NCBI GenBank assembly: GCA_021234155.1
Contig: JAJEKV010000003.1
Coordinates: 14,492,386 to 14,556,385 of the forward strand
Length of the DNA: 64,000 bases
Direction of reading: 5' to 3'
Source of the DNA: Isoetes taiwanensis
Lineage: Eukaryota > Streptophyta > Lycopodiopsida > Isoetales > Isoetaceae
The notes beneath the pieces were generated by a model that saw nothing but the letters and a program-made list of their open reading frames with translations, was not told the origin of the DNA and ran no database searches. The translations under genes were made by a program, and so were the position numbers. Shown piece by piece: positions 7,111 to 54,010 of this stretch (position 1 is the first letter of the stretch; each line of letters begins with the position of its first letter).

Positions 7111-7187
7111 CTCCTCAACAGTACCTTATTCTTTATTCTTTGAAACCCACCCTCCCCCCTTAATTGATTAATGTACTTGTCGTTTGG

Positions 7188-7475: not shown

Positions 7476-7515
7476 GCTTTGAAGTAGAATGCACTACAGG
7501 TGATTTCTTGAGTGT

Positions 7516-13759: not shown

Positions 13760-16190
13760 TCAACCTCCTATGCCTTTTCCCTTACTACAACGTCCTCGAG
13801 GCATGTTTCTCCTAACACGTTCTCTGTTTGTCAAGGTAATTGGCATTGAAGAGTCCAATGCATCGCGTGGCCTTTCTGTATCGGACTCCTCGGTATCCTC
13901 GCTGTCGGCTGATTCGTCTGAGAATATGATTTGGCCTATATCATCTTGCTCGTCAACGAAGTGGGTACGCTGAATGTCTTCAACATAGTTTGCGGCATTT
14001 ACTGCAAGTAGCTCGTCCTCACTGCCTTCGAAGCTGTCCTCTTTCACTTCGAAATCTGCATCCATGAAATGAAACTGTAGCTTATCGATTGCGGATGCAC
14101 CACTATTGCGATTCAAGAGCCGTCAGTTTGAGAAGTTATATACAAGTTTGTCAGCCTTCTTACGGGTGACACTGTGTATATACTTATAGGCACTCCAATT
14201 CCTCTCACTTGCACTATTGGAGGATACCAAGGAGCAGATAATCATTGCAATTGCCTGTAAGATATTAGTAACTTGCCCGTGGGCTTGCCACAATGTATAG
14301 GATTCCATATTGGGCTCCTTCTTATGACTCTTCAACGCGTCATGAAGCTCTTTTTCTGCCACCTTCCGCTCAAGTTTTGGTATTCGGTTAACTCAGCAAT
14401 GAAAAGCTTGTAGTTTGAGATATTAGGATAGTACAATTTTGCAACTTTCTTTAACGAACCCATAACTTCCTTATCTGTATGTTAGTCCATATCATGGTTG
14501 TGCGGGTCTAAGGCATATGTGGCGCAATGAAGTTCGTTGTACGACTTCTTCCATCGTTCAATGAAGTCCCTGAACAGTGTTGTGCGCTTGGCATTGTCAA
14601 AGGGCGCATTGGGCCCGTCACGTTCTAGGAATGATTGAATTGAGTGCTAACACCTCCAGACCTTATCAGTGCTTGCCTTTGAAGAATCAAGGGTTTTGAT
14701 GGCATGACAAACAGGTTGCATGCACCTCACAAGATTCTTTACACCTTTCCAAAACGTCTCCCGCCCAAGCATTTCTCGAAGGGCAACAGCTTGTTGTCGC
14801 TGTTTGGAGGCATTTTTGCCCTTCCGCCTCCTCTCGCATTCAAAGAACTCAGTATGATTGAAGGTCGAGATAATCCAATCACGATACCTAAGCACTCTTT
14901 CGAGACAGATGTAATTGGAACCAAATTGCGTTTGCCCAGGATTCATGAATGCTAAGGCCTTCTGACGTTATGACTTGTAAATGGCGTAAATTGCCAGCTT
15001 TTTTGTGATGAATTTTACAAGACGACGCGCTTTCTGAATGGGATCTTTAAACCAAGTGTGCTGTGAGAACCAATCCTTGAGCAATAGGTTCCGGAATGGC
15101 ATTGGCAGCTAGTGGCGTCCAATCCTGGAAATTTGGACTCCAACAATTCACCCGCTAACTTACAATTAGACACGTTATCTATTACAACCTGAAATATTCT
15201 CTTCGGTTCAAAACTCTCTATCACAGCCTTTATTTTCTAAAAAATCCAATCTCCTGTCACTCGGTCAGTTTGGGTTTCTACGGTCTTCAAAAATACTTCG
15301 CCCCCTGGATACACGATCATGAAGTTTATAAGATGATCCTTATTTACATTACTCCAACTACCAGTCACTAGTGAAGCCGCCTGGCTTCAGTAACACGAGA
15401 CAACTTCATCTCCACCCTCTCGACCATTTTTCTGTTATTTCATCGACCATTTTATTGAAGGCAACCTGAAAGCCGGCCCTGCTTTGGCAACTTCCTGGAA
15501 GGCTTTGTGTTCCAAAATATGTGGAGATAACCCAGCATATAAAAATGCCTCTATAACCTTCAATTGTGTCTTATTCGGTTGCTCTGATGTTAAGCAATGA
15601 TCAATCCTCTGTTGCTTCGTCTGTCTTTCCACTATTTCAATTGTCTCTATCATTCTTTGCTCGCCTATACTTATACCTATTGATCCTAGTCCACCCTCTG
15701 ATTGGTATGTTGCCCCAACATGGGGGGTGGTATAGTTATTTTCGTCTGCTTCTGCTTGGCACTGCTCTTGAGTATTCGTAACCCGTCTTTTTTTCATATT
15801 ATTCCTCGTTTTGCGTATCACATCTAGTCGAGACAACCTTTCAATGGCATCTTTTCGCAAGTCAGCAGATGCAGCCCAAGTCGTCACACCAACGTCTCTT
15901 TCACGTAAGATGTGAGCTCAAATTCTTGTTGTGGAACCATTTATCGATGAGTATCCACAAAATACACATTCCCACTCATTTATGCCAAACTCCTTCACAA
16001 AATCCCATTTTGGGCCTCTTTTCCGACTAGCAACCCCAGTAACGCGACCAGGTGCATGTGGTGCAGTCCCTGTGGCCCTGTCACGAGCGCACGCAGTCCT
16101 CGCACCCCTAGAAGAGGATGCATGACTGCTGCCTGCACCTCCTGAGGTAGATGCATGACCAGCTGCCATTGCTGCTAGCTTGGCTGACAA
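13760..16190 (-). pseudogene. hAT transposase pseudogene (BED, DUF659-like, C-terminal dimerisation)
   Basis: Fragments on the minus strand lie in hAT order. 16190-15918 has a Ser/Gly/Ala-rich start and a BED-type finger (WECVFCGYSS, then a stop, then a His). 15887-15435 is a linker and the start of the DUF659-like region. 15224-15015 contains VVIDNVSNCKLAGELL followed by a CQCHS motif, typical of the catalytic core of these transposases. 14362-14123 has the hAT dimerisation signature (SSNSASERNWSAYKYIHS, then KADKLVYNFSN). 14116-13760 is an acidic tail. Several stops and frame changes interrupt it, so it cannot make a full transposase. Catalytic acidic residues could not all be located. Terminal inverted repeats were not identified. 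Confidence 0.85.
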
Positions 16191-16330
16191 TGTCTGTTGA
16201 TAAGACTCCTTGATTACACGAACTAAAGGAAGACGTATATATGCAAAGGAGCGAGCTCATTACGCATATGTTACGTCGACGTTTCCGTACGAGAACCAAG
16301 GGGGGTGGACGAGAGCCTATAGGATATTTT

Positions 16331-18113: not shown

Positions 18114-19037
18114 TGTCGGACCCATACACAGCCCACACGAAGTGACCTCACTATAAGCCTAGCCCATTATGGGTCCCTAGTAGCCACGCTCAGCAGGGCC
18201 CTCCCTCCGCTTTGCCACTAGCCTCGTTGTATGGTGCTAAGTCATTCCATAGCCCCCGTAGCCGGGTGGGTTCCTATGCACAGGCTGCATACTAATAGGA
18301 ACTAAGGGTCTAAACTAGAAGCATCATCTAGATAGTAGCCACTAGGTCTCTACCCCCCCTTCCCAATACACAAGAGGTGCAAACATAAGATCAACCAACA
18401 TCGTACATCAACATAACATGATCAATAATGAAGATACATCTAATTCTAATCACATGCATGGGGTTCATTGATTAGGGTTCCAAAGCTAGACTGAGGGTTC
18501 TAGGAAGGCTCTACTAGCAAGATAAGATACTAGCTCATCTGGAATCCTAGGTTCTAGATGATCTACCTATGAAGCTACTATGAATACCTGCTCCGGACGA
18601 ACTTCCTCCAACTCCTGGGGTCTCCATGACTTGATAATGAGTCGAGTGATTCCTCCTCCGTCTGATGAGCATACTGCCTTGGGGCTGTCAATCTGAGCTA
18701 CGCCGCAACGAACGGTGTTTGAAACGGAGTTTCGAGCAAAGAACAGGTCACAAGGTAGGTGGAGCCAAAAAGGGGCCTAGGGTTAGGGTACTTATCGGTT
18801 AGAGTTTCATGTCACTTCCATGTGGCTCCAATGGGGTGCTTCCATGTGGTGGGTGCCCACTAGGTTGAGGCCATGTGGAAATGGCCTTAAGCCTGAGGTT
18901 GGCTAAGTTATGTAAATAATTTGGCCATGCTCCCTTTTCCACTTACTATGGTGTACAAGACTATAATGATAGGCTTGTAAGGGGACGAGGCCTAGAAATA
19001 TACGTATTTATGGCATATATTTTTGGGGAACGTCACA
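18114..19037 (-). repeat. Putative 3' LTR of the chromovirus
   Basis: On the minus strand, TGTGACGTTCCCC begins at 19037 directly after a polypurine tract, the expected start of a 3' LTR. The far end is set only tentatively at the TGT of TGTCGGACCC (18114), which gives about 920 bp. The sequence is more GC-rich than its surroundings. No matching 5' LTR was found in the window, so the boundaries and target duplication cannot be confirmed. Confidence 0.45.
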
Positions 19038-19050
19038 TTCTCCTCCCTTT
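19038..19050 (-). promoter_or_regulatory. Polypurine tract of the chromovirus
   Basis: The minus strand reads AAAGGGAGGAGAA immediately before the TGTGACG of the LTR. This is the primer site for plus-strand DNA synthesis in LTR elements. Position and composition fit well. Confidence 0.65.
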
Positions 19051-19899
19051 ACGAAAATGCTGTCCTCAACATCATGCAAAGTTAACGAACCTGCACTAGC
19101 CCTGTAAGATCACACACATGAATATAAAGACTTACCTTTTGCTATTAGCTACTTATTACGTACATATAGGCTATATTTGTACCTATACAAAATTATATAG
19201 CCTTCGCAAGTGTTACTTATCACAATTTATCCATAATCATTATCACGACGGTTATTAGAAGTCCATAGTTAAGTCTACAAAATTATGACTCCTGCCTTCT
19301 CGTAGTGTGCTCCTTCATCCATGCTCCCCTTCATTGGCCTGCACACATTGCACATTATGTTAGTTTAGTTAATAAGTTTGTGGTTTTAGGGGACCACCCC
19401 CCTTACTACCTCCTTGAGCCGAACTACTAGCTCAAGGTTACCTCTATTACTTGCACTCGATCATGGCCCTTAGGATTTGAGCTTAAGGACCATTTAAGAT
19501 GATCCTATCATTGCCCATGATCGGGTGTTACCTTGTACAAGATTCCTTTTATCGAGTACATCCGCAATGCCCCATGCCCCTGGGGATTTAAGCTAGGGAA
19601 TGTCTCATGATCCCATCATCGCGCATGATCACGCATACCTCGCCACGATTGCCCTATGGTCATGTACACGTTCCCTGCATCGTGGCATAGAGATCATCCA
19701 GGTGATGGTCTCATCATTGCCCACCATGATGCACTCCTCTCACATGACCATTCCGGTCATGCGCACTCTTGGTGCGTGCTGGCCTAGAGAATGCCCTTGG
19801 AGAGTATCTCATCATCGCCTACACTCCAAGATTCCTGCATATGCACCGTACTAGCATAGAATACATGCGCCTTCCTGTTCTTACACTAAGACATAACAA

Positions 19900-21215
19900 A
19901 GCTTAGCTAAAGCACCTGATAGGTTGGCGTCGACCAATTCGGAGATGACTTGACTATCGAATTGCTTCTTGAAGTCTGGGTATTGCCTCTCTAAATCTTG
20001 CTTCAATACCCATGTTGCATATTCCACGGCCAAGTACTTCCACTTGACCAAATATTGAAGGAACTAGGACCTTCTTGTCTTCTTAAATGCCTTATCAGGA
20101 ATTAACTCAGGAATTATCTCGATTTTCTCCTCTGTCATTTCCAACAATGTTGGAGTTTCCAAGACCTCCTCTGGGTTTGGAGTGTGCCTCTTTAATAGGC
20201 TTACATGGAAGACTTTGTGGACTTTGAGATGGGCTGGTAAATTGAGCTTGTAGGCTTGATTCCCTACTTGCTCTACGATCTTGAAAGGTCCTGCCCATCT
20301 TGGAGCAAGCTTCTTACAATTCCCAATTCAAAGCTTTGCTTGCTTGACCTTAATCTTAAGCCAAACACTATCCTCAACTTGGAACTCTCTTGTAATTCTA
20401 TGCTTGTCGGCTATGCTCTTTTTTCGACTTCTTGCTGCCAGAAGATAGCCTCTAACCTCTTCCACTAACTGTTGCATATCGGTCAACATTTGTTGAGAAA
20501 CTTCAACTTTAGACACTGGATTATGCCAAGTGTCTGGTATCAAACGTTGATAACCATAATTAATCATGAAGGGGGACATTTGTGAAGATTCCTACTTGGT
20601 ACTATTATATGTTAAACTCTACCAAGTAAATGTAGTCACCCCATTTGGCATGTTTGTTCCACACATAGCTTTTCAACATGTCTTCTAGAATTTGGTTGCT
20701 GCATTCTGTTTGACCGTCAGTTTGGGGATGGTAAGCCGTGCTCGTAGCCAACTTGGTCTGGATCGTGTTGAAGTCCTTCCAAAAAGGCAGTTATAAACTT
20801 GGGATCCTTATCAGATATAATTTTCCTTGGCATCCTATGTAATCTAAATATTTCTTTTGCAAAGAGCAAGGCGGTGCCAAACGTTGTATCAGTGGTTCGA
20901 CATGGCAAAAAATGAGCCATCTTTGATAACTTGTCGACCACTACCATTAAGACATCATGGCCCCTTGCTGTTCTTGGGAGTCCGGTTATAAAATCCATGC
21001 TCACAACTTCCCACTTAGCCGTTGGCACTGCCAAGGGTTCCAAGGTTCCTAGAATTCGAAGCTGCTCGGCCTTTGTTTGTTGACATAACTGGCACTGTCG
21101 AATATAGTTGGCTATGTCCTTCATTTGCTGGGCCAATAATAACTACTTCTTATCTTGAAATAGGTTTTCATGAACCCTGCATGGCCGGCTATTGGGCTAT
21201 TGTGAGTATCATGAA
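19900..21215 (-). pseudogene. int: Chromovirus integrase and chromodomain
   Basis: Reading the minus strand: an HHCC zinc-binding motif (His pair in DTHNSPIAGHAG near 21210-21175, CQLC near 21090), then the DDE core with SMDFITGLP, IISDKDPKF and a Glu in TDGQTECSNQ (about 20715). The GPY/F-type region follows (AGPFKIVEQVG, near 20290), then VFHVSLLKRHTPNPEEVLET, then a chromodomain with LQYLVKWKYLAVEYATWVL (about 20070-20010). In the element the integrase inserts cDNA, and the chromodomain is thought to steer it to modified histone H3. One stop lies at the start of the chromodomain and frame changes occur near 20600-20700, so the protein is dead. Confidence 0.88.
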
Positions 21216-21834
21216 GAATTAACTTCCTTGCTCCTGATGATTCAGGGACACAAAGTTTGTCCTTGTGGTAGAGAAGATTGCCTTCTCTCTTATATTTTTT
21301 ATAAGCTTCTCTTTCTTTATCTGTCCTTGCCTCTTTGCAAAGAATAGCCCATATTTCCTTGAATTCTTTGCTTGAAGGCAAGACCTCTTCAATCTTTTTG
21401 CCAAAATCACTACACAAGGTGGAGGTGGCATTGCAATGCACTCGAATCTCCAATGGCCTGCGAGAGAGAGCGTCAACAACCGCATTTAATTTACTTGGCT
21501 TATAGACTATCTCAAGGTCATACTCTTCGAGGGAGTCCATCCATCGCCTTTGCCTCAAACTGAGTAGTGGTTGCGTAAAAATATATTGGAGGCTTTGATG
21601 GTCGGTATCCAACTGAAATTTCCTACCAAGCAGGTAGTGCCTCCTAATACGAAGAGCTCTTACTATAGCCAGAAGTTCTTGATCATGCGTTGGATAACGT
21701 TGCTCGACGCCATTCATCTTCTTAGAGTCATAGGCTAGCATTCTTCTTTCTTGCATGAGAACTCCACCTGTTGCTAGCTTACTAGCATCAATTGCTACAA
21801 GCTTATCCTTGCTTGAGTCTGGTAGGGTGAGCAC
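21121..21834 (-). pseudogene. Chromovirus RNase H domain
   Basis: This 237-codon open stretch contains the RNase H motifs: LVAIDASKLATGGVL (first Asp), a Glu in THDQELLAIVRAL, and LDTDHQSLQYIF (later Asp). It continues into LRQRRWMDSLEEYDLEIVYKP and the spacer DALSRRP, the usual join to the integrase zinc motif. The region degrades the RNA strand of the RNA:DNA hybrid during reverse transcription. It is the longest uninterrupted piece of pol here. Confidence 0.9.
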
Positions 21835-21849
21835 TGGTGCTGTTATTAA

Positions 21850-22845
21850 GGCTTCCTTGAGCTTTTCAAAACAAGCTTAAACTTTCTCTAGCCAATGCGC
21901 CCCCCAATCTTTTACCTTGACATTCTTGGTGAGGTCCGGCAAAGGGGATGCCCACTTAGCAAAGTCCCTTACAAACTTCATGTAGTAGCCTGCTAACCCA
22001 AGAAAGCTTCTCACTTCAGAGACGTTCTTTGGGGCCGGCCAATCTACTATGACTTCTATCTATGCCGGGGCCGTTGCTATTCCTTTGGCTGACACAACAT
22101 GTCCAAGGTACTCAACCTTGGTTGTAGCAAAATGGCAATTAGAAAGCTTGCCAAACAAGCGATGCCGTCTTAGCTTCTCCAAGACTTTCCTTAAATGTGC
22201 TACTTGTTCTTTCCATTGACTTGCTATAGATGAGGATGTCGTCGAAAAAGATGATGACGAACTCATCCCAGAACTTTCTGAAGATGTCGCTCATTAGCCT
22301 CATGAACGTTGCTGGAGCATTTGATAACCCGAAGGGCATGATTGTAAATTTGTAATGCCCATACCGCGTCTCAAGTCTATCTTAGAAAAGACTTTTGCTC
22401 CTTAGAGTTAATTCATCAAGTCATCTGCCCTAGGCAAGGCATATTTATTCTTTACCATCTGCTTGTTCAACTTACAGTAGTCTATACACATCCTTAGGCT
22501 TCCATCCTTCTTCTTCACAAAGAGAACGGGTGCCCCGAAGGTGATACGCTTATCCTGATGAATCCGAACTCAAGCAATTCTTTGCTTCTTGAACTCAACT
22601 AGCTCTTGGGTATTCATCCTATAGGTGCATTTGCTAGTAGACATAGCATCTGGTGCTAGTGTGATCTCACACTCCATGCCCCTATAGGGTGGTAACTCAC
22701 GGATTTCATCCGGAAACACATCATGGAACTCCTTGATTAGCCTTGCTACTGGTCTGAATTGCTGATTCAAGCTTGGCTCCCTTTGCTTTTCCTGACCCAG
22801 CTCAATTGCCTCTAGTCGAAGGATATATTCCACCTTGTCCTTCAT
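21850..22845 (-). pseudogene. Chromovirus reverse transcriptase
   Basis: RT blocks on the minus strand: FHDVFPDEIRELPPYRG (near 22720) precedes the fingers, then [12 protein letters not shown] (near 22335) and the catalytic [11 protein letters not shown] (near 22240), a variant of the usual YVDD/FVDD box. The thumb and connection follow with [21 protein letters not shown] (about 22150-22090). Frameshifts near 22600, 22370 and 22250-22140 and stops show that it is inactive. It lies between protease and RNase H as expected. Confidence 0.88.
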
Positions 22846-23405
22846 TTAGCTTTTGTGCAATTGCTTCAGAGAGATACACTGCATAGCTGAAAGGACTTTC
22901 TTACCTTTGACTACAAAGCAGTTCCCGTCGGGTGCGGTGATGGAGATTTCGTGCTTGTCATAGTCAATCATGGCTTTAGCTGGCTTCAAGAACTCCATTC
23001 CCACTATGAGGTCATATTTACCAATATCCATTATCTCTGCTCCCATCGTCCATTTGGTTCCACTAAGGTCTATATCAAAGTTGATTCTCTTTCTCTTGGT
23101 GTGGCGAATTGTACCACTTGCCATACTGACCGACCTGGGTTTGGACTCAAGGGTCTTGTTCTTCATGGAGAAGCAAAGTTGTGCGAGCTACCTGTATCTA
23201 TGAGGATTACATAGGGCTTACTATCAATGATGCCCTCTTCCGAAATAACTGTGGACTGATTTTTGACATCACCTGACTCAATAGCTGCACAAATTCTGCA
23301 TTCACCTTCTATGTAGTCTTGTGGTTCCTGCTGGTCATCCTCGTCGCTGACCACTTCCGTTGGTGACTCCCAATCAATGAGTTCTGCAAGTACTGCTTGT
23401 ATCAT
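22846..23405 (-). pseudogene. Chromovirus aspartic protease
   Basis: The active-site motif ILIDTGSSHNFASP is at about 23205-23163. The flap-side part has MGAEIMDIGKYDLIVGMEFL (near 23055-22996), in which the DLIVGMEFL strand is typical of gypsy proteases. A degenerate zinc knuckle (RCF, stop, PGHRTHDFPF) lies just upstream near 23440-23410. The frame changes near 23165. The protease would cleave the gag-pol polyprotein. Confidence 0.82.
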
Positions 23406-24516
23406 GAAGGGAAAATCATGTGTACGATGACCCGGCTAGAAGCATCTGAAATACAGCTTCTTCTTTATGCATTCCACCCTCTTTTCCTTTGGAATATTGT
23501 CCAAAAAGAATTTCAGTGATTTCACCCCCGGGCGTCCCTGCTACCTCTGTTCCCCGTAAGATCCTTTCTTATCTATCTTTCCCTGATATTGGTGCCTCCC
23601 TGGTGTGGAGGATGTCTACCTTGGCTGATAAGGCCCTGTTGATTTCCCTTTGTAAGCTTGTTGTTTCTGCCACGGGGTTGTCGGTGCTTCCTCCAAGCTT
23701 AGTGCTTGTCTTCGTCCTCCCCAACTATTTTCGGGTTGATGGCCCGTACCAATCTCTTAATGTTACTATTTAATCCCTCAATATAGCCATCCACTACCTG
23801 CCTTTCAGTGATCCTTGGGACTTTTAGCCTTAGCCTCATTTATTCCTCTGTATATTTGGCCACTGATATATTCCCTTGGTCCAACCTGTAGAACTGCTGA
23901 ATCTGCCTGCTGGTGTGCGACTTTGGGACGTAGTTCTTGCGGAAAGCCTTACTGAAGATTTTGAATCTGCAATTGTTCCTTCTTAACTTGTTTGACTTGA
24001 CATATCCCTTCCACCAAATTCAGGTTGGTCCAATCAGGTTTGTTGTTGCCACCTTTTCTATGTCCTTATCTTTCATCCTTTATGAGTTCTCAAATTCCTC
24101 CATCTCATCTAACCAAGCTTCCGCTTCCATTCTAGACCTGTCTTTCTCGGAGAATTGACCGAACTTCCGAGTTTTCCATACGTTACCCATTGCACTGTCC
24201 ACCTTCTTTTGATAGTCCCCTGTTCTACGATTCCTGTCCCTGTCTTGTGAGGCGTCTGACTCACTTTCAGAGCTGCTTCGAGATCCGCTTCCTGTAGTGT
24301 CTGACCAGCTGGAGCTAGAAGGAGTTGGGCTCCTCTTACTTCTTCTTTTTCTCTTTCTGTTCTTCTCAAGTACATGGACTTCTTCCTGCTCTGGTTGAGG
24401 AGCTTCGTTTGGTCCTCTCGGTGGTGGAGGAGACATTGATCCATATTCCTGTGCATGCATCAATGGCATGGCAATTAGTTGTTGCATCTGGTTCCGCATT
24501 CGGATTAGCCTTTCGT
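23228..24516 (-). repeat. gag-protease tandem duplication, left copy (1,289 bp)
   Basis: This unit is nearly identical to 24517-25803. On the minus strand it holds a complete copy of the region from the gag N-terminal part to the start of the protease. The left edge is AATGAT|GCCC and the junction is GTTGAT|GCCC, with 4-base TGAT homology. Because it sits nearer the protease, this copy continues into ILIDTGSS. Mismatches are few (for example GTGGACTG versus GAGGACTG near 23250/24539), so the duplication is young relative to element decay. Confidence 0.93.
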
Positions 24517-25905
24517 TGATGCCCTCTTCCGAAATAACTGAGGACTGATTTTTGACATCACCTGACTCAATAGCTGCACAAATTCTGCATTCACCTTCTA
24601 TGTAGTCTTGTGGTTCCTGCTGGTCGTCCTCGTCGCTGCCCACTTCCGTTGGTGACTCCCAATCAATGAGTTCTGCAAGTGCTGCTTGTATCATGAAGGG
24701 AAAATCATGTGTACGATGACCCGGCTAGAAGCATCTGAAATACAGCTTCTTCTTTATGCATTCCACCCTCTTTTTCTTTGGAATATTGTCCAAAAAGAAT
24801 TTCAGTGATTTCACCCCCGGGCGTCCCTGCTACCTCTGTTTCCCGTAAGATCCTTTCTTATCTATCTTTCCCTGATATTGGTGCCTCCCTGTTGTGGAGG
24901 ATGTCTACCTTGGCTGATAAGGCCCTGTTGATTTCCCTTTGTAAGCTTGTTGTTTCTGCCACGGGGTTGTCGATGCTTCCTCCAAGCTTAGTGCTTGTCT
25001 TCGTCCTCCCCAACTATTTTTGGGTTGATGGCCCGTACCAATCTCTTAATGTTACTATTTAATCCCTCAATATAGCCATCCACTACCTGCCTTTCAGTGA
25101 TCCTTGGGACTTTTAGCCTTAGCCTCATTTATTCCTCTGTATATTTGGCCACTGATATATTCCCTTGGTCCAACCTCTAGAACTGCTGAATCTACCTGCT
25201 GGTGTGCGACTTTGGGACGTAGTTCTTGCCGAAAGCCTTACTGAAGATTTTGAATCTGCAATTGTTCCTTCTTAACTTGTTTGACTTGGCATATCCCTTC
25301 CACCAAATTCGGGTTGGTCCAATCAGGTTTGATGTTGCCACCTTTTCTATGTCCTTATCTTTCATCCTTTATGAGTTCTCAAATTCCTCCATCTCATCTA
25401 ACCAAGCTTCCACTTCATTCTAGACCTGTCTTTCTCGGAGAATTGACCGAACTTCCGAGTTTTCCATACGTTACTCATTGCACTGTCCACCTTCTTTTGA
25501 TAGTCCCCTGTTCTACGATTCCTGTCCCTGTCTTGTGAGGCGTCTGACTCACTTTCAGAGCTGCTTCGAGATCCGCTTCCTGTAGTGTCTGACCAGCTGG
25601 AGCTAGAAGGAGTTGGGCTCCTCCTACTTCCTCTTTTTCTCTTTCTGTTCTTCTCAAATACATGGACTTCTTCCTGCTCTGGTTGAGGAGCTTCGTTTGG
25701 TCCTCTCAGTGGTGGAGGAGACATTGATCCATATTCCTATGCATGCATCAATGGCATGGCAATTAGTTGTTGCATCTGGTTCCGCATTCGGATTAGCCTT
25801 TCATTGATCACTTCAGCCGTCATTTCTTGTTCTTTGTCATGTTCTCGGCCGAAAAAGTTCCTAGGTTGCCACTGTTGTTGTCTGCCCTGACCTTGTGACC
25901 CTGAG
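24080..25905 (-). pseudogene. gag: Chromovirus gag (right copy and junction frame)
   Basis: On the minus strand gag begins after a TTGCAG acceptor-like site at about 25920. It runs through a Gln/Arg-rich start, NERLIRMRNQMQQLIAMPLM, a basic block (EKNRKRKRGSRRSPTPSS) and an Asp/Ser-rich linker. Then comes the Retrotrans_gag start (KKVDSAMSNVWKTRKFGQFS, then MEAEAWLDEMEEF). Further on, WWKGYAKSNKLRRNN, YTEE and VVDGYIEGLNSNIKRLVRAI are recognisable across stops. The protein would form the capsid. The left tandem copy encodes the same domains at 24516-23400. Confidence 0.8.
24517..25803 (-). repeat. gag-protease tandem duplication, right copy (about 1,287 bp)
   Basis: This is the second copy of the unit at 23228-24516, ending ATTGAT|CACT. 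It carries a one-base loss near 25415 (TTCCACTTCATTC versus TTCCGCTTCCATTC), which breaks the gag frame in this copy only. Instead of reaching the protease active site, its protease-proximal end reads straight into the gag start of the left copy. That makes a chimeric 204-codon frame (24694-24080) with ISEEGI joined to NERLIRMRNQ. Confidence 0.93.
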
Positions 25906-26157
25906 CCGGTATTCCTGGCTGCAAGTATTAGTCATCATGTTCCTTATTCAAAGTTATACATCATGATGTCATTTATATGTTAGTTCTTGTTAGCCATAAA
26001 AGAAATCAAGTTGAAACTCAACTTAATAATGAATTATAACAGTTGATACATCAACATACAATTAGAAGCTTGAAATTTTATATAGAGAATAGATAATAGT
26101 ACATGAAATTTTACAAATTATCTTGGTACATATTAATACATGGAAAGGCATAAGGGT

Positions 26158-27658
26158 TTATCGTCGAGATCCCTTCATAGACTTGAAGAAGTTCTTCGCG
26201 TCCTTGAGTCGAAGACCCTTGCCGACGTTGCGTAGAATATTTCGGAATGATCCGTCTTCTAATGCTCGAGCCATTTGAGGAGGTAGGAGCGGTGGTGTCG
26301 TAGCTGCTACTACTGTCGCCGGCACATCCCTTAGATGACCCCTCGCAAAGTCGAAGCTGTAGAGTACCACGGATCTTTTGAAGAGGATTACGTGATCCGT
26401 GTTCTCCCTCATCTTGGGATGCTGGCCGAACCCTGTAAGTGCAATCAGAAGTGACACAGACTCATCTCCTCGTGGGCTGAAGTCCTTGTGAAATACTATC
26501 ATCTGGCCTTGGCTTAGGACTAGAAGATAGTATCGAAGAGCCTTCCCCTTTTAGGGTCCCGCCGACTATGATCCTGTTATACCCTTCCTTTTAGCCGCTT
26601 CGTTGCAGATGTCTATTGCTAGGAGATCTTCATGGTCCCTCCACATAGTGGTTGCATTGTCTAAGTTGATGCTGCTGGAACCCCCCTTCCCCCCGCTCCC
26701 CGCTCCCCCCTCCCCCATGCTTCGCGCTCGAACGGGTCGGCTAGAGCTTGGGCCTCTCCTTGGTTTGTACAACCTACTTTGAATTTCTTGGAACTCCTCC
26801 TCTGGAATGACTGCCGGTTGGTGGTGATACATCTGCCTTATGTACTCGTATGCTGCAATGTCAGACATCGTTTCACCGGCATAAGAATGTCGATCTGCTA
26901 ATCCTCTTGGAACTTTTTGGTAGAAGTAGTCGATGAGGTCCTTCTGCTGCTCCTCTGCAATCAGTCCCATGAGCTCGTCTATCCTGAGCCCCTCTTCTAT
27001 GCAGTATGGGAGATGGAGGATGTCGTTGGCAAGAAGATACTCCTCCCTTTTGATCACTATCGAAGATAGGGCCGTGATGCCTATAGGTGGTTCATTGGCC
27101 CTCCTGATATCTTCATCATGCCTTGCTATCTGCCTCTCCATCTTTAATGCTAGCCTGCTCTCCTCGTCTTGATCGTCATCCCCTTCCTATTCATAGTCCT
27201 CTTCAATTTGAAGTGCCCCCGCGGATGCGCCATGGTAGACGTACTCCAAGGCATCTCGTGGATTTGGCCCTCACCCTCGTGTTGAGGGGTGCGAGGTCCA
27301 AGGGCTGAATTGAAGGCTACCCCACCCTGTTGATGGTCCTGAAGTGCATGAACAGAGATAAGGCCCTGTGTGTTGAGACATACCGATGCCTGAGCCTTAC
27401 AACTCATGTAATCAGGCATGTTCTTCCTTCTATCTCACAACTGGTTCTTGACTCTAGATCCCCCACCTAAGACTTCACTTAATGACTCCAAGGACACCCA
27501 CCTGCCTCCCCTTGGAGGAAGGCTGACTTCCCAGTGTTTTTAGTCAAGGTTGCATGGAGATCAAAGAGATGGTCAAAGACGTGGAAGGCCTCCTCTGCTG
27601 GGAATGCACTGATGTAATTTTCACCGTTGTACCATTCAACAAAGTTTGTGGGCACCAT
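26158..27658 (-). pseudogene. Extra gene upstream of gag, unrecognised family (ORF0)
   Basis: A TATA box (27764-27771) precedes an ATG at 27658 (MVPTNFVEWYNGENYISAFP). Exon 1 can end at CAG|GTGGGT (27501). A second part, in frame from about 27310, runs PLDLAPLNTR, an acidic linker with one stop, MERQIARHDEDIRRANEPP, DLIDYFYQKVPRG, RHSYAGETMSDIAAYEYIRQ, a Gly/Ser/Pro-rich linker, two stops, LSQGQMIVFHKDFSPRGDE and FRNILRNVGKGLRLKDAKNF, ending in RR at 26158. I do not recognise the family. The same blocks occur on the plus strand at 52270-52690, again about 0.6 kb ahead of gag, so this is probably an element gene. Three stops in frame mark it as dead. The upstream in-frame ATG at 27730 is too close to the TATA box to be favoured. 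Confidence 0.6.
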
Positions 27659-27939: not shown

Positions 27940-28440
27940 AAATATGCTAAACTCGGGCTATTCCACGCTAAACACGTCTGTGTTCGTGACGTAGGGCCCC
28001 TCAACGCGATGTGACCCGAGTGGGTCAAATTTGAATAAAGTTCATATTTTTGGGAGATGTAAGATACTAAAATGCAAGTTTGGCATTATTCTGGGGTATC
28101 TAGCAGCTTATTCTATATCAATCTAACATGTAAAAGTGCAAAAATGGGTGATTCAGATTACTCTGCGCAAAAGGCATCTGCATTTGCGACGCAGGGCCCA
28201 TCGGCACGGTGTGATCTGAGTAGATCAATCTAAACTTATTTTGAATATTTTTGACAAATTTAAGATGCTACACTATAAGATTTAATTAATTCTAAGCATT
28301 CTAACAACTTTTCTTACAAAATTTGGACAATTGATGCCAACAAAGAGGGCACTCGGGTTACTCTGCGCGAAACGCGTCTGCGTTCACGACGCAGGGCCCT
28401 TCGGTGCGGTGTGACTCGAATGGGTCAATTTTGACCTAAA
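27940..28440. repeat. Three tandem units of about 198 bp with a CpG-rich core
   Basis: Units centred near 27990, 28190 and 28390 share a core of the type CGCGAAACGCGTCTGCGTTC, then ACGACGCAGGGCCC, then CGGTGTGACYCGAGTGGGTC, with AT-rich sequence between cores. The period is about 198-200 bp. The array lies between the H3-fold sequence and the TATA box of the extra gene and could be part of a regulatory region or LTR. Which one cannot be decided here. Confidence 0.75.
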
Positions 28441-28525: not shown

Positions 28526-29250
28526 TTATACAAAATTATCTTTATAAATTACTTTTATACAAAATTGCAAGCTTTCTAAAGCTCGTTTTCGGATCCTCCT
28601 AGTCAAGTGGAGGTCCTTTGGCATTACTGTTACCCTCTTCGCATGGATGGCACATAAGTTGCCTTCCTCGAAGAGTTGTACCAGCTCTGCCTCTACTGCC
28701 TCTTGAAGAGATCGAACTGTTAGGGGTATAACCCTATAATCGGTCCAGAACTCCTGCATAACTTCTTAGAGGAGCCGTTTAAACGATGCCTTCTGGATCA
28801 GGAGATTAATGCACTACTGGAAGTGCCTAATCTCCCAAAACACCCTGGCGTGCTTGGAGTTGGGTCCATGGTGGACCTTCTTCGGAGGTTGTGGCCGAGG
28901 TGGTGGTGGCTTCGATTGATTCTTTGGTCTGCCGCTCTTAACGTACTTCTGTACGTTTTGTTTGCAATACCACTCGTTGTACCTCTTCCACCTCCGGAGG
29001 TACTTCTGGTATGCTTTCTTCCTTCTTTCAAATTCGCGGTCTTGCTTAAGCATGAACTCGTGCTCTCCTGCTTTCTGCTTTTTCACCACCTTGGGTGGCT
29101 TGGGCCACTTTGGCTAAGGTGGTTGGGCGTCAGGATTTGAGGTCTTCCTGACGTCCTCTTCTGGCTCCTCCTCCTCCTCATTTCTGCCTTCTACGTCCAC
29201 CTCTTCGTCCTTGTCCTCTTTCTCTCGTCCACTTGCTCCCAGGGATAGGT
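28526..29250 (-). pseudogene. Histone H3-fold protein with a non-H3 N-terminal tail, broken by stops
   Basis: One minus-strand frame encodes an acidic start (EEEEEPEEDVRK), a Lys/Arg/Tyr-rich block (RRKKAYQKYLRRWKRYNEWY), a Pro/Lys stretch (KPPPPRPQPPKK), and then the H3 fold without gaps. The alpha-N region is WEIRHFQ (H3 REIRKYQ). Helix 1 is LLIQKASFKRLL (H3 LLIRKLPFQRLV). Helix 2 is [20 protein letters not shown]. Loop 2 and helix 3 are [20 protein letters not shown]. Loop 1 has the length of canonical H3, not the longer CENH3 loop. The ARTKQTARK tail is absent. Stops fall at about 29115, 28814 and 28775, so it is now a pseudogene. The 5' exon limit may be an acceptor near 29257. It lies upstream of the chromovirus extra gene on the same strand. 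Confidence 0.8.
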
Positions 29251-29360: not shown

Positions 29361-29534
29361 CGTACGCAAAACCTTAAGAATCGCGTACGCGAAAATAACG
29401 TATTTGTGGCATAAAATTCAAATTCCAGTTTCGCGTACGCAATCCCCACAGTTTCGCGTACGCGAGTTCGCGTACGCAAAACTGCTGAGGTTTCGTGTAC
29501 GCGGTTTATTTAGTTTGAAGAAGTCGCGTATGCG
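29361..29534. repeat. Cluster of CGCGTACGCG palindromes
   Basis: Seven copies of CGCGTACGCG or close variants occur in 175 bases (29361, 29382, 29432, 29455, 29469, 29494, 29525). The surroundings are AT-rich and CpG-poor. The cluster is immediately upstream of the H3-fold frame on the minus strand. It could be a methylation or protein-binding array, or subterminal repeats of an element. Confidence 0.75.
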
Positions 29535-30614
29535 AAAATATTTATATATATTTGCGACACGGTTTTTCAGTTTTTGCGCCGCAAAGAAGGTATCTTCTGT
29601 GCCAAACCTCCTAATCTGCCCCTCAAAATTTTATTTTTTTTGTTTTCCTTAGTTTTTAGGCAAAAAATAGTTAGTCTTTTGTTGTTTTTGGATAACTAGG
29701 TCTAGACAAGGTCCTCAGTTAGGCCCTCATCTGTTGCCCCCCTATCCACGCCTTGTTCTGAGGACTGAGCTTGACCTATTTTAAGAAAAAAAAAAAAGGG
29801 GAACAATAAAGTAAGACCACAAACAAAAAAAACTAGCAAAAGGCACACCAGAAGGCTTTAGCAAGGTAAGATTTGTTAGGGTTTTTTTTAGAAGGCTTTA
29901 AACAGTGACATAATACGCATACGGAAATGAATACGGAATACGAATACGTGAAATATGCATACGGAGAATACGGAATATTCTCTTAGAATATTCCATAAAA
30001 TATCATATTTGTACTTGATCTTATCAGCTTAATCTCTATTTTTTAAATATGAAAACTGTAAATTCTTCTATTGCAATAATAACAACATTAAGGGACGTCC
30101 AACGACTTACTAACTTAGTTAGTACAACGATTCAAAAAAAAGGAACATCGAACAAACTGAACATCAATGCCAAGAACACCAAAAAGAGAAATTTATGGGC
30201 AGAAGCAACCTGATCAAGCCTTAGAAGGCGATCCATTTAAAAAGCATCCTACATATAAATAAAATGCCAATCATTGATTTTCTTGTATGGAAATTGCTTT
30301 GAAATTTTGTCATTCAAAGGAAAAGTACTTGGTCGAAAGCTTTGTTATCGAAGTGGCAGAAAGCAAATCTAAAAGTAGGAAGTAAATGCAATGGTAATGG
30401 AGTAGTATAACTAGTATTGCGAAAGTCTAGTGTACATTGTTGTGCTAAAGAGAACTCTTCATATCAGTACAAGAATAATGATCGTTACACAAGACCAGCA
30501 AAATCTGAGGAGCATGGATTAGCAGGATGCTTGTAATAATACTCAACATGGGTTTCTCAACTCCTGGTTGAAGTTTTCTATGTACCTTATTTGTTTCCTT
30601 GTCTTGAAAGCAGT

Positions 30615-38314: not shown

Positions 38315-41300
38315 CCATCCACGATCAATGATTGGAGGCCTATTTCTTTACTCTCCTCTGTGTATAAGATTATTGCAAAAGCTTTGGCAGAAAAGCTTAA
38401 ACTGGTTCTAGCATCCTCTATTAACAAGGTTCAGTCTGGGTTTATCCCAGGAAGAAACATCTTAACTAACGTTGCTGCAGCTTGTGAGGGCTTGTATTGG
38501 GCTAGGAAAATAGGTCAGAGAGTTGTTTATCTTAAGCTCGATTTTGCGAAGGCATATGACAGTGTGCGCTGGGAGTTTTTGTCTAGTGTGCTTTTGGCTT
38601 TAGGTTGTGGTCCACGTTTTACAGAAATAGTTATGAAGCTTCACATGTCAGCACGAGCTACAGTTATGTGCCAGGGGGAGCCCTCCCCATTCTTTTCGAT
38701 GGGAAGAGGAGTTCGTCAGGGCTGCCCTCTGGCCCCATTTTTGTTTACCATGGTGGCAGAGGCATTATCACAATTGCTCTTGACTGCCGTAGATGAGGGT
38801 GTGGTAGAGGGTCTTCAGATGCAGAACGGCAGTCAGCAGATTTGTAATCAGTTTGCAGATGACACTTTCCTCTTTGTGGCAGCAGAAGAAAGCAATTTGC
38901 GTAATGTTAAGGGTTTGCTAGATACATTTTCCTTGGCTTCTGGTTGTCTTCTTAATTGGGGAAAGTGTCCGGCTCTGTGGGCTTTGGAGACGCCGCCTTC
39001 ACCTTGTTTGTTTCTCTTCCCTTGGAAGGTACTCCCAGTGAATGCATGTACCAGACTTCTGGGCATTCCTTTTGGGGGTGATATCCATGGAATAAATTAC
39101 TACTCCTATATTTTAGTGTAGCCAAAATAGGTTTAGCTAAACTACCTTCAAATTGGGGCTGGAAGTTTCTAACACTTGGCTAAACTAAATGGTTTTTCTC
39201 CATCACAGTTTCTTGCTTTTGGCTAAACTTTCACAAAATAGAAAGGCAAATATTAGCCATCACGCGATAGTAATTAAAAAAAATCCAAGCATTTTGGCAA
39301 ATACAATTAATTTATTGTAAATACATAAATCAAGACATACATGAACATGTTCAAAAACCTAAAAAAAAAAGGGACTACATTGTTCCTTTTCCTCTAATGC
39401 ATCAACTTTGTACTTGGAACAAGAAAGAAAGTGAAAAGAAAAAGAAAAATATAAACCTATTTGCAATCTCTTAAAGTTAGCACATACATTGATGTTGAAT
39501 TTCGGGCTAATCTATCCATTTTTCCAAGCCCACTCTATCTTAGGTTTGGCTAATCGATGTCATGATGGATATATCTGGAGGTAAACGTTTGGCTATTCAA
39601 CCTAAAAACTCACTTGGGCGGCAAAAAAATTGGGCTAAATTTTTTTTTTTTTTTTTGGGCATTTTTTCCATTTACTTTAGCCGTTTTTCTTGGCAAAACT
39701 GCTATAAAATAGTCATTTGGCTAACCTTAGCCTTTATTCCATGGTGATATCTCTGAGATTTTGCAGGGACTACAGAAGCACCTGAATTGGTGGAAGGGTA
39801 GTAAGTTGTCGATGGCAGGCAGGATTACTGTAGCTAAGTCAGTGCTTTGTAGCACCCACGTATACACAGCGTCTGTTATGTTAGCTCCAGAATGCAAGGT
39901 TCAGGAATTGAATAGAATTGTCCAAAACTTTGTTTGGGGAGGGGCTGTAGAAGGAGCAGTGGTTAAAGTAGCCTGGTGGAAGTGCCTCCGCCCTCGAGAG
40001 GATGGGGGTTTGGCAATCCTAGATTTGGCTTTGCATTCTAAGGTGTTAGTCTTCAAGTTTGTTTGGAGTATTCTCCATGAAGAGGTGTTCTCTCCAGGTG
40101 CAGCATTGCTTTTACAGTCCCTCGAGAATTGTGTGGCTTTTCACAAGCTATCTGTCCCTGTGAAGTTGCCTTGGGTCTTGCTTTACGGTCTGAGGCCATT
40201 CCCACACGCGTCACCTTTTCTCAAGGGTGTACTGCGGGCCTGGGAGCATGTGCGAGTGCTTTTCCAGGTAGACTATGCATCAATATTTCATCACACTTCT
40301 CCTTTTCTGTGGGTTCCTCTGTCTCCGACATACTTACCTTTGGCTTCCAGCTTGCACGCTCGGACGTAGGCCCATTGGACTCGAGCTGCAGTCTCCACCT
40401 TAGAGGATTGGTATTGACATGGCCAACTGGCTCCTTTGGAGTTTTTTCAGGCCCACTTTCGGCTTAAGAGCAGTGATCGAGCTATCTGGCAGCAAGTGGC
40501 CTCCTGTATTCCGCTGCATATTCCTGTTCTCCTCCAGGGAGGGGTGGTCTTTCAGATTTGGAAGGTTCATTCGAGAGTCGATGAGTCATGTTTTGTTCGT
40601 TCTTATTATCGGACATTGGTTATTCATGATACTTTACCTCCTTCTGACAAGTGGGCACTGAAGCTTCAAGGTTCCTGTTGGCGCTCCGTCTGGACATGGA
40701 CTTGGAACTCTCTCCTCCCACCGAAGGTTAGGGTTCTCTTGTGGCAACTGGTGCACCGCTGCATTAGGGTAAATGTTCTTGTGCATAAATTTAAGCCAGC
40801 TGTGAGTTTTCTTTGCCCCTGCTATGGCTCTCATCGAGAGTCCATTGAACATTGTCTAGTCTGGTGCCCACATTTGCAAGCTGCATGGGATTGGGTCAGA
40901 GCATTGTTCCGGATCAGGATGTGTAGCCAGAAGATACTTCTTCATGTGTTTCCAGCTTCATGGTCCTCTCCTAAGAAGCAAGCTTTCCATCTGTGTAAGG
41001 CATGGTTGGTTTGGTTGATTTGGAACGACATCATTTATGGATTTTTCAAGGGATTCAGCAACCTGCAGCCTCTCTAGTTCCACGACTCAGACATAAGCTA
41101 TTCTAGAGTTTTCTTGTGTTTACTGGCCTAGAGGAGACAAAGTTTTGCATCTGGCGAGATATTTTGCACATTGAAAATGCGAAAGGGGAGTTTGTACAGT
41201 GATTACTAGAGGTGATTGGAAGTTTACGCTCTAGTTTTTTAGTATGGAGTGCTGAGGTGTCTTTGTCCCTTTGGGGCATTCTTTTTCCTCGCTACTTGTC

Positions 41301-46714: not shown

Positions 46715-49180
46715 CGCTGTAAGTTTTTTTTTTTTTTTTGGTGGACATCCATTTGAAAAAAAGCTCTATATATACATTTTCAGCATCACATTGGAAGCAC
46801 TGCATGGCTCAATTTAGCAGTTTTAGAGGCATGGTTGGGCCTTTAATTTTTTTTTAAAAAAGGAAAGGCTTAATTAGAATGGACGTCCTAGAATTTAGTA
46901 TGCCTATCATTGTTGCCAGACCAGCTTTTATTTTGATGGTCTTTTTTATTTTACTTTTCTCATCATATTTTCTGTTTGCAGATCGTTTTTTTGCTTTCAA
47001 AATTTCCTCAAAGGCAACCAATCACATCTTCAGAGGTAATTCGCAAAAACTTCTTTCGTTTTCTCATTTTGGGAAACCGTATCCGTATACTGCCGCAATG
47101 CATTGGCAAGTTTTTAAAACAAGATTTTTATCCTCTGTGCTGGAACAGGCGTTTTGCAAGTCTATAGCCAGACCATCTTGCATTATGACCTATTCCTATT
47201 AGGATGAACATGTTTTTCAATGCTTGGCATATGTACCTTTTTTAATCTTTTGTCAATCAGTCTTGACATTTGGCATGTGCTCCAAGTGCTGTTACACTTG
47301 AAAACGCGATAATTGATCCTCTAATGCTATGCATGTGTCCTAAGAGGTATGCTTTTTATTGTTGTTTATGCTCTCCATTGTCTTAATGAGATTCCTTATG
47401 TAGAAATGGTTTTGGAAACAATAGAACAACATGATTCGTGTGACAAAAGTCTAATGAAAGTGGAAATCACAGCAAGAGGAGGTGCATTATCTCTTTATTC
47501 TTCATCGATTTAAAATGCGTGCCGCTTTTACTATTGAACTACAATTTTTTTATTCTCTAGAGTTACAGCAACTATCCACTGACTTCTAGGTCAGGACTTA
47601 GCTGGGAGGTTATTGCTCTTGCTTGCAGGTCCTCCTCGCAAAAGGCAAAAGAGAAAAGGGCCTCAGAAAGTGCTTGAAAAGAAAAAAAAAATATATAAGG
47701 GTTAAGTCACTGCAAAGGTAATGCATATGTAGTTAATGTACTTATCTATATATGTGTTCTTGTCTGTTTTTAGAAATTTCTAAGCCATGTACGATAACCA
47801 GCTTACAGATCATTACAATGAGTTCTCATTCAAATCAGTATAACAAGTCATTACATTTTTTGCATTCTAGAGGATACTTATGGATATATTAAGTCTAAGA
47901 TGGTACAGACGAATATTTGAATTTCCCCTAGAAAGCTTGCATATCCTTATTCTGTATACCCTTGTTGACAGAGTTCTCAAATGCCCATATGGTTTATAAA
48001 TTGTGCCTACTCTGAATTGATGTGAGTTGTGTGAGATCAATGTTATCTGGAATACATGTGATTGCATTTATTGCATGGTAGGAAAATCTTTCTTGGCATA
48101 ATTTATGGTATGCAGTTTCTGAGCTTCTCTACAGCTTCAACATTTTCTAAGTTTCCTTCATATATACGGGGTGCTTATATCCCGAGCTTCGAAGCCATAA
48201 ACCTTTATCCGATCATTATCTAATGTGAAGGTCAGAAAATGCTACTTTTCCCAACTTACTGCTTCAAGGTTCTTATTTCTTTTAACAAAAAATTTATCCA
48301 GCTGTGGAATCAAACAGAAAAATGGTTTTGCACTGCCAAAAGTTTTTTAATAAATTATGCCTGTTCTACAGCATATATAGGCACATCAAACAAAAGATCA
48401 AAATTGAGCATTTGGTGTTGGACCATTTTTTATTATATCAATATAAAAATCTAGCCTTCAAAAACAAAAAAGTTGCCCCTTCAGATGGAATGGTATGTTT
48501 CTTTGACTACAAACATAAATAGTTGTAACTACCAACATGTTTATGTGCATTCTCTTGCTTTTTTTGAAGTATTAAAGCATAGTCAAGACTCAAATTCTTA
48601 TAACAGATGGTCCACAATGGTCCACAGAACATGCCATAACCCCAACTATTTATCAACATTTGATCCATCTCAAAATGATACCTCTTGGTACATGTGTACT
48701 TTTTTGCAACTCTTTGCCCTGACCCTCAGGAGTTGCAGGTGTTGGCCTGGCTCTTGTTTTGGGGAGTTCAGTCGGGAATGAATCGTGTGTCGCCATGATC
48801 CTCTAGTCGCCCATGGAACCACTAGACCTCGGGAAGGGGAGATGGAACCCTTCCTACCTCATCGGACTAGGGAGATGCAATCCGGAATGGTCTCAATGGG
48901 TTATACCATGAGACTACGTATCCAGCAGGTTATAGTCATGCCAGAGCCCGATCTAGCCAGTCTGCAAAGTATGCACAGGAGGGGCACATGTAGTGGTCAA
49001 CCCTAGCCATTATTTATAGCCAGCCCCGCCATTGTTATATCTCGGTCTGCTCTATCTTGTGGCCCAGCCATCAGTCTACTTCCTTACGAGTCTGAGCCCG
49101 GGTAGAAGCTCTCATGTTTTATGGCATGTTGATATCTTTGTGTATTTATGGATGTACGGATGTGCTACCCTTCGAGGTAG
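46715..49180. other. No recognisable gene; possible LTR-like GC-richer block 48780-49100
   Basis: No family is recognised. Around 47637 a TTGCAG acceptor precedes a basic open peptide (PPRKRQKRKGPQKV), which may be a decayed exon with a nuclear-localisation-like run. At 48780-49100 the base composition rises and a TATTTATAG word is present, as in LTRs or promoters. No boundaries could be drawn. Confidence 0.3.
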
Positions 49181-49189
49181 TTAGATGTA

Positions 49190-49421
49190 TTGTTGTTGTT
49201 AGTGCTGACATTATATGCTTCCGCTGTTATAGAAAGGGCAAGGCACCTTCGTGTCCCCTTCCTGCACTGGGGATACCTTGGGTGTGGGATAGATGAAGGG
49301 CCCATGCGGCCAGAGGGTTGGATGGGGAGTTTCCTACGAGATATACGACCGGGCGTCGTATATTTAGTAGAGAGTGTCACAGCATCAGTAGATAAAGATG
49401 GAAAATTATACGGGACCATGT
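49190..49421 (+). other. Exon-like open frame between an acceptor and a GTAAGT donor
   Basis: A TTGTTGTTAG acceptor (about 49201) opens a frame of some 73 codons containing VPFLHWGYLGCGIDEGP, then GWMGSFLRDIRPGVVYLVES, then KDGKLYGT. It ends at GGGACCAT|GTAAGTTTG (about 49421), a strong donor. Amino-acid composition is that of a folded protein. I do not recognise it, and no neighbouring exon was found. Confidence 0.35.
49341..49363. other. Hairpin-forming inverted repeat
   Basis: ATATACGAC and GTCGTATAT are separated by five bases (CGGGC), a perfect 9-bp stem. It lies inside the exon-like frame. No function is known. Confidence 0.6.
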
Positions 49422-52257: not shown

Positions 52258-54010
52258 CATTCAAGAATTTTGACCCGATCGACTATTCTTACAAGGAATA
52301 TCCACGACAAGTAGCAGAGCGCCACTCATATGCCAGAGATTCATTGACCGATATCGAAGCATACAACACTCTCAGGCAGGCGGTTCAACAACAACTAATG
52401 ATATCGGAAGGGCAGGAACCGTTGCCAGGTGCAAGCATTCTCAACAAGATCATCGAATCAACCACTCTCTTTTGTAAGGAACGAATGCATTAATCTTGAA
52501 AGCTCTTTGACCATGCAGGGATTTTGCCATTTTTGACATATCTACAATAAAATTTTGAATCTGTGTCTAGCATTATTTTTAGATCTTCTTACAAAGGAGG
52601 ATCAACGAGAAATATTCTCAAGAACTTCGGCCTAGGATTGAAACTTAAGGACATCAAAGATCACTTCAAATTCAAACATCAACAGTGAGAATAGCTCCAT
52701 CAGTGTTTTTTTTTCAACTTCCAATCATGTTTCAAATTATGTTATGTCTGATGTAACTCCTTAGATATCCCTACATCATAATTATACGTGTTTTTGCCTT
52801 GAAAATTTATATCGTGAAGTTAATCAACATAGCAATGACATAATACTATGTCCATGGCATAAGAGACATCTATGATGAATGTTTTTGCAGCTAGAAATTT
52901 TATAACACCTTCACAGAACCCACTAAGCCAAGGATAAGCCTCTAACAGGATGTCAAAGAATTAGTTTGGCAAAGTGCAACAAGAAGTCAAAATGACACAG
53001 GCAGAGATAAATCGACACCTGGTAGAAATGGGTAGACAGATGTGAAAACTCATTTAGATTGTAACTTCACTTATTAGAGGGGAGGAACATGGGCCACAAC
53101 TACCACCTTATTAGGGAAAAGAACAACAACCCGACAATCAGCCCGAACAACAACCTGCCCCGGCATCATCCAGTCACAAGAAGAGAAAGAAAAGAAGCAT
53201 AAGATCTCAAACCTCTTCGAGCTCCAATAGATGACAGTTTCGATAGCACTTCAAATAGCAGCTGAAACAGCGGATCGAATAGCTATCATAACAGACATAA
53301 ACATTTACAAGAAGAAAATAGATAGCACAATGAGCAATGTGTGGAAAATACATAGGCTCGAACAATTCTCAGGCAAAGACAGATCAGGCATGGAAGCTGA
53401 AGCTTGGTTGGATGAAATGGAAGTGTTCGGAAGCTCGTATGGTATGAAGAACAAAGATATAGGTAGCAACTGCTAACTTGATTGGACTAGCATGCGTTTG
53501 GTGGAAGGGATATACGAAGTCAAACAAGCTCCATAGTAATAATTGCCGATTTAAGACCTTCAATAAAGCTTTCCATAAGCATTACGTGCCTTATTGTCAT
53601 ATTAGCAGGCAAATACAATAGTTCTGTCATCTAGACTAGAGGATTTCGTCAAGTGGCCAAGTATACAGAGGAATTCTTGAGGCTATAGCTGAATGTGCCT
53701 AGGATAACAGAAAGATAGGCAATGGACGGCTACGTAGAGGGGCTAAATAGCAATATTAGAAGGCTAATCCATGCCATAAATCCTAGGACAATAGAGGAAG
53801 AAAAAGATAAGACCTTGAATCTAGAGGAAATACTCAAACTCTGGCAAACAAATAGGTGTATTACGACAAAGGAAAGTCTACGAGTTTTTACAACCCAAAA
53901 TTGGCAAGCCCTAAATGACTGCGAAATTCAATTTGCAGCTACATGTTGCAGCCAGGCCACACCAGCAATAGCCACGTGGAAGGTTCAACATAGTGGACGA
54001 AATTCTTGAA
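52258..54010 (+). pseudogene. gag: Second chromovirus copy: extra gene plus gag, diverged
   Basis: The plus strand repeats the 5' organisation of the minus-strand element. 52272-52500 has DPIDYSYKEYPRQVAERHSY, then RDSLTDIEAYNTLRQ (compare DLIDYFYQKVPRG and RHSYAGETMSDIAAYEYIRQ). 52585-52688 has RNILKNFGLGLKLKDIKDHF (compare RNILRNVGKGLRLKDAKNFF). A TTGCAG site at about 52893 precedes gag (ARNF), then MTQAEINRHLVEMGRQM, KKRKKRSIRSQTSSSS, KKIDSTMSNVWKIHRLEQFS, MEAEAWLDEMEVF and, at 53722, MDGYVEGLNSNIRRLIHAIN. Many stops are present. No protease or pol follows. Divergence from the first copy is large. Confidence 0.8.

Follow-up and report, generated by a model that had tools for sequence, protein, structure and literature searches.

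We report that an H3-like reading frame in the genome of Isoetes taiwanensis is the first open reading frame (ORF1) of a large Ty3/gypsy chromovirus family, and that this ORF1 codes for a chimeric, element-made histone H3. The frame lies in a 64,000-nucleotide stretch of contig JAJEKV010000003.1 (positions 14,492,386 to 14,556,385, forward strand; hereafter the window), and the window copy is a dead member of a second subfamily, C.

In the window, the H3-bearing sequence is read on the minus strand in a single frame (approximately 29290-28526) that contains three in-frame stops (two TAG and one TAA) and requires no frameshift. The H3 core, from alpha-N to helix 3 (28586..28852, minus strand, two in-frame stops), matches Pfam Histone at 5.2e-23 and PDB H3 chains at 2.5e-25, the latter without gaps and far beyond chance, which confirms the gapless H3 fold with three stops proposed in the first-pass annotation. 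By sequence the fold is thus present over its full span from alpha-N to helix 3, while AlphaFold gave low confidence for the H3 part on a thin alignment. Ahead of the core is what remains of the rest of ORF1, which in the subfamily-C H3 protein is an insert with acidic, basic and proline-rich stretches (28853..29250, minus strand, one in-frame stop). At E 0.01, Pfam matches nothing in this long tail. It had been described as wholly non-histone; it appears so because the window copy has lost its 5' end, and most of the C loci examined do carry an H3 tail tip. The tail tip, leader and primer site are all missing from the window copy, neither a primer site nor a clear 5' LTR was found for it, and DNA of the C loci can be aligned to the window from ~29218 downwards. 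Immediately upstream of the ORF1 remnant there is an imperfect inverted repeat rich in the GCGTACGCG motif (29365-29578).

The neighbours of the H3 frame are those that had been claimed: an extra 5' gene, gag, protease (PR), reverse transcriptase (RT), RNase H (RH), integrase (INT), a chromodomain and the start of a 3' LTR are all present. Specifically, ORF1 and ORF2 are separated by a repeat array of ~200-bp units (27951..28440, minus strand, detected by self-matches), and these units have several matches each in three C copies (L037, L039 and L040). The extra gene is the family's ORF2 (26158..27186, minus strand, broken); the family ORF2 profile gives collinear matches at 27135-26785 (E 5.3e-5) and 26544-26350 (E 3.3e-5), and pieces of the window ORF2 match L044 and L045. 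The gag region (23210..25931, minus strand) includes a 1.29-kb tandem duplication (23228-24520 and 24517-25808, 98% identical). It is followed by a broken pol with protease, reverse transcriptase, RNase H and integrase (20067..23187, minus strand; Pfam RT_RNaseH, Integrase_H2C2 and a weak rve match) and by the chromodomain at the integrase C-terminus (19884..20063, minus strand; Pfam Chromo 1.2e-7). The polypurine tract AAAGGGAGGAGAA and the 3' LTR start (TGTGACG from 19037 downwards) occupy 19037..19050 on the minus strand; the LTR start, TGTGACGTTCC, is identical in complete copies, and the end of the window 3' LTR was not found.

A second, truncated element copy in the window (52272..53811, plus strand) consists of the ORF2 end and part of gag, and no H3 was found upstream of it. 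The 5' LTR ends of four C loci share 77-88% identity with a stretch at 49018-49381 (plus strand), which ends in GTCACA, has no primer site behind it and resembles a solo LTR. By eye, other parts of the window contain broken frames like a hAT-type transposase (13760-16250, minus strand), frames resembling a LINE reverse transcriptase (38360-41077, plus strand) and an ORF resembling an alpha-type carbonic anhydrase (58779-59150, minus strand).

The genome (1,658,258,908 bases, or 1.658 Gb, in 1110 contigs) was searched with Pfam Histone, and 150 of the 8705 first-look candidates were scored. The top 15 are full-length matches (profile positions 2-122), and the eight of these that were read (L001-L008) are canonical host H3; in nearly all of the remainder the profile match begins at about position 10-25. 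By hand count, 36 of the 150 had at least 400 open codons; from these we took 20 loci, each with 10 kb of sequence, the choice thus resting on histone score and a long open frame. All 20 loci have an ORF1 of 411-459 codons ending in an H3 core, its openness being a consequence of how the loci were picked; as exceptions, L025 has no recognised start and L016 extends past the usual end. The copy number of the H3-bearing family in the I. taiwanensis genome is large; at least 149 other genomic copies, 74-89% identical, were found for a single 99-residue piece of the window frame (28817-29113).

Alignment of ORF1 from 18 of the 20 loci (L011 and L025 were left out) resolved subfamily A (12 rows), subfamily B (five rows) and one further type, D (L017). 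In A/B/D the protein starts with a ~215-residue N-domain and continues with a linker, variable and either Q/E-rich or charged, and with a basic pre-core that often has STGGK as in the tail of H3, before it ends in the H3 core. What stands in place of the H3 tail is thus the N-domain plus the linker, and the core behind them is almost canonical. While the core is almost constant, the N-domains of A, B and D differ strongly from each other, and no PDB or viral match and no known relative hinting at a binding partner was found for the N-domain. A profile of the pre-core and core of these subfamilies matches the window at 29014-28586 (6.9e-31); the N-domain profile has no match at the window ORF1 (best E 0.16, elsewhere), and the linker profile alone leaves the window tail unmatched.

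Downstream of ORF1, ORF2 is present in 19 and gag in 17 of the 20 A/B/D loci (counting L013, which served as query), and pol pieces are present wherever the stretch is long enough. An LTR end beside the primer site was recognised in 19/20 by similarity to L013 (itself included), and the 12-nt primer core is perfect in 14/20 A/B/D loci and in 4/12 C loci. Two copies, L013 and L020, have LTR pairs with TG...CA ends, an initiator-Met primer site (TGGTATCAGAGC) and a polypurine tract, with ORF1 inside. The LTRs of L013 are 96.6% identical and flanked by a perfect 5-bp target duplication (GTGGC), and the element is ~13.2 kb long by coordinates, ~3 kb of its pol being unread; for L020 the LTR identity is 95.6% (93% in BLAST pieces), the perfect 5-bp duplication is CAATC and the length ~11.2 kb. 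ORF2 was not found in L020, the pol of which matches RVT_1 (1.4e-39), RT_RNaseH (5.4e-33), H2C2 (2e-20) and Chromo (2.7e-6), in the order RT-RNase H-integrase with a C-terminal chromodomain; window pol is 55% identical to it over PR-RT and 76% over RH-INT-chromodomain. That the H3 might be element-encoded had been suggested from the window, and it is borne out by independent copies in which ORF1 has the 5' LTR/primer site on one side and ORF2-gag-pol on the other, all on one strand. In one locus (L018, oriented) a 2.2-kb LTR plus leader (1390-3624) is repeated at 7173-9424, behind ORF1-ORF2, and sequence common to the gag/PR region of other loci follows from 9510, as in a rearranged or nested copy.

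Subfamily C was searched for with 99 unbroken residues of the window tail, and 150 of the 5390 candidates were scored; among these the matches are 74-100% identical (100% being the window) with frames of up to 436 codons. Twelve loci, the window among them, were fetched, chosen by the insert. At the start of nine of the 12 stands MARTKCTARK(Y/F) or a sequence one or two changes away from it, and five have MARTKCTARK exactly; the tip is missing in the window copy, L032 and L040. The tip starts were located via DNA similarity to L042 and not by a residue pattern. Compared with the H3 tail tip, Q5 is replaced by C and S10 by Y/F. The layout in C is therefore the first ~9 residues of the H3 tail, an insert of ~250 residues and a diverged core, and neither here nor in A/B/D is there a canonical H3 with a complete tail in a ~136-residue protein. 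Most C loci are broken, and only L042 has an unbroken frame from the tip to the end of the core. With the first 83 residues of L042, which include the tip itself, as query, 139 of the best 150 of 1534 candidates align from residue 1 (hand count). In L043, another ORF1 start of subfamily C (MAHTKCTARKYRS) was seen at 7212-7829, ~2.2 kb behind an LTR end at L043:5021 and in the same orientation as L037. Across 10 copies, K9, R8 and T3 are kept in 10/10, K4 and A1 in 9/10 and R2 in 8/10, and the conservation of the tip, K4 and K9 included, in the subfamily to which the window copy belongs lends support to the earlier idea of an H3 mimic, which might then mark insertion sites or dock at them. Of the three C copies followed downstream, two have the order H3-ORF2-gag: L039 (ORF2 end, gag, PR, RT, RH and part of INT) and L040 (ORF2 and gag), both collinear with the window. 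The first-pass annotation had asked whether other copies of the frame lie away from the retroelement, or whether its only relatives are single-copy host H3 variants; neither was the case in the copies examined, with the reservation that no gag or pol was found within 8.9 kb downstream of L037.

In the A and B cores, few of the DNA-contact and H3-H3' residues compared are changed (Y41F in 9/12, K64R in 11/12 and F104L in 10/12 A copies; R42K in 5/5 B copies), and the B core has Y41, H87 and L90, the plant H3.3 signature. The C core keeps C110, H113, K115, R116, K122, D123, L126, R128 and R129 in eight or nine of nine copies and most H3-H3' residues, and it is changed in loop 1, at K56 (to Q), K79 (to R/Q) and Y99 (to E), while R49, R63 and R72 are each kept in only 5/9 copies. 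Because loop 1, K56 and K79 are changed and R49, R63 or R72 is lost in several copies, the C core may not form normal nucleosomes.

The H3 tree places all 18 A/B/D cores in a single clade (99/94), separate from host H3, and the window core is outside that clade on a long branch. When C cores are considered together with those of A/B/D, the two form separate clades (96/93 and 100/99). It is quite possible, if not favoured, that H3 was captured twice, once in A/B/D and once in C, rather than captured once and remodelled twice; these separate clades, the tail tip being found only in C, and the failure of the N-domain profile and of the linker profile alone to match the window are all in line with two captures. 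However, a single A/B/D plus C clade is not rejected (AU p = 0.27), and in both lineages the H3 occupies the same slot before a homologous ORF2.

Selection on codons was estimated as dN/dS (Nei-Gojobori, ratios of means). Subfamily A (12 copies) gave 0.030 for the core, 0.127 for the N-domain and 0.205 for the linker, with dS undefined for the N-domain in 23/66 and for the linker in 15/66 pairs, and subfamily B (five copies) gave 0.020, 0.118 and 0.131, respectively; almost all pairs drawn from different subfamilies are saturated in dS. Selecting copies on histone score and open frame biases the A/B/D core values downwards, but not directly those of the N-domain. The tip and core of C are free of histone-score bias because the C loci were chosen by insert: tip positions 1-9 gave 0.07 (10 copies, i.e., nine of the 12 loci plus the second start in L043) and the core 0.098 (9/12 loci; L035, L038 and L039 were dropped for indels or frameshifts), and the insert, the region used for choosing loci, gave 0.052 (9/12 loci). 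These ratios indicate purifying selection on the parts of ORF1, with cores at dN/dS 0.02-0.10. The time over which this retrotransposon lineage has kept and diversified its H3 corresponds to dS near 1.

An H3 core kept under selection to dS near 1, together with a tail that is replaced in some subfamilies and preserved at its tip in another, points towards use on chromatin, and the best overall explanation of our data is probably a chimeric element-made H3 that is under purifying selection and used on host chromatin. As to how, our opinion is nearly balanced, leaning slightly to doubt: judged from the sequences, the core would pair with host H4 and enter nucleosomes or the histone-chaperone path, and the fused domain or tail tip would tether element proteins or cDNA to chromatin. 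Such tethering could aid nuclear retention, insertion-site choice or escape from silencing, the last being considered because the A/B/D protein is without the K4, K9 and K27 positions. A more far-reaching version, which we put forward as speculation, is that the element writes its own chromatin address, in that the ORF1 histone would sit in host nucleosomes, its tip (C) or N-domain (A/B/D) would recruit integrase or the particle, insertion would be steered by this element-supplied histone, and the lost silencing sites would shield the new copies. Plain reading of H3K9me by the element chromodomain (QYLVKWKHLPVEDATW in L020, QYLVKWKYLAVEYATW in the window) appears doubtful, and the data are mildly against it, because only one of the three aromatic-cage residues is kept, as seen by eye in comparison with HP1.

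Two other functions would not depend on nucleosomes made with the element's own H3. The protein might act as a decoy or poison that occupies histone chaperones or the H3K4/K9 methylating enzymes and so weakens silencing of the element, as might be expected from a C tip that retains K4 (9/10) and K9 (10/10) with S10 changed to Y/F, and from an A/B/D protein that has no tail yet keeps the core surfaces; the long, conserved A/B N-domain (dN/dS ~0.12) would be superfluous in a pure decoy, and we regard this role as rather improbable. About equally unlikely, or marginally more so, is a structural role outside nucleosomes, in which the H3 fold, being basic, would package DNA or RNA within the virus-like particle or the integration complex. 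A particle role would fit the position of ORF1, which precedes gag and follows the primer site as the first ORF, and the drift of the C cores in loop 1, which faces DNA; but a near-constant A/B core that includes the H3-H3' residues seems beyond the needs of packaging, and C has retained a histone tail tip. Finally, a host H3 pseudogene or passenger beside the element, to which the three stops of the window copy, the second window copy without H3 and L037 with no gag or pol in 8.9 kb downstream might point, is refuted by the same order in many copies, two of them within LTRs and target duplications, and is at odds with purifying selection on ORF1.

In the literature searched we found no precedent for a retroelement-borne H3. 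The closest case is the H3-like (H3L) gene carried by a hAT DNA transposon in Pyrenophora tritici-repentis, of which the available sections of the report describe 26 genes, all very similar, and leave the function undetermined (PMC3538342). Both systems have an H3-like gene that is borne by a transposable element and multiplied with it; the fungal element is a DNA transposon with terminal inverted repeats in a wheat pathogen, whereas that of Isoetes is a plant LTR retrotransposon, having LTR ends and reverse transcriptase instead of the transposase and terminal inverted repeats of hAT elements. Moreover, the Isoetes H3 is within a larger ORF1 and occurs in several old subfamilies and in far more copies, and here selection has been measured. 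With plant chromoviruses the family shares LTRs, an initiator-Met primer site, gag, PR-RT-RH-INT and a chromodomain (PMC6317226, PMC2864245), and it differs by extra 5' ORFs of which the first is the H3 chimera; most Tcn1 elements are described as lacking a tRNA primer site (PMC6317226), and the Isoetes elements have one. Orchid Ty3/gypsy elements have captured an AlkB m6A demethylase (PMC9289625) and are thus similar in being gypsy elements with a host-derived gene in an extra ORF, the gene being for an RNA demethylase in orchids and a histone in Isoetes. In its section on a screen of LTR retrotransposons across 121 angiosperm genomes, the same report lists further extra domains, a histone domain not being among them (PMC9289625).

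Like the element ORF1, CENH3 combines an H3 core with an altered N-terminus. Loop 1 of CENH3 is longer than that of H3, and the element core, which is retroelement-encoded, has no loop-1 insertion relative to H3 in the gapless alignment. By eye the window core has a few CENH3-like residues, and Marchantia CENH3 is among its matches (52%); in the trees the element cores are apart from the Marchantia CENH3 pair. A protein on an ENA contig (P0006, 346 residues) also has a long non-histone N-terminus and an H3 core.

The family may have been hidden in the Isoetes genome paper because its repeat library dropped repeats that resembled plant proteins (PMC8566536); the word "histone" does not occur in the main text of that paper (PMC8566536). 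Similar elements may have been missed in other genomes, too, wherever repeat pipelines filter out sequences similar to host proteins.

The Isoetes family is a chromovirus with a new class of captured gene. Histones are normally the property of the host, and an H3 preserved by selection suggests that the element acts directly on host chromatin. With its own diversified H3, the family would directly exemplify a mobile element at work on the nucleosome. It offers a testable system for target choice and avoidance of silencing in chromoviruses, and a natural experiment in what can replace an H3 tail.
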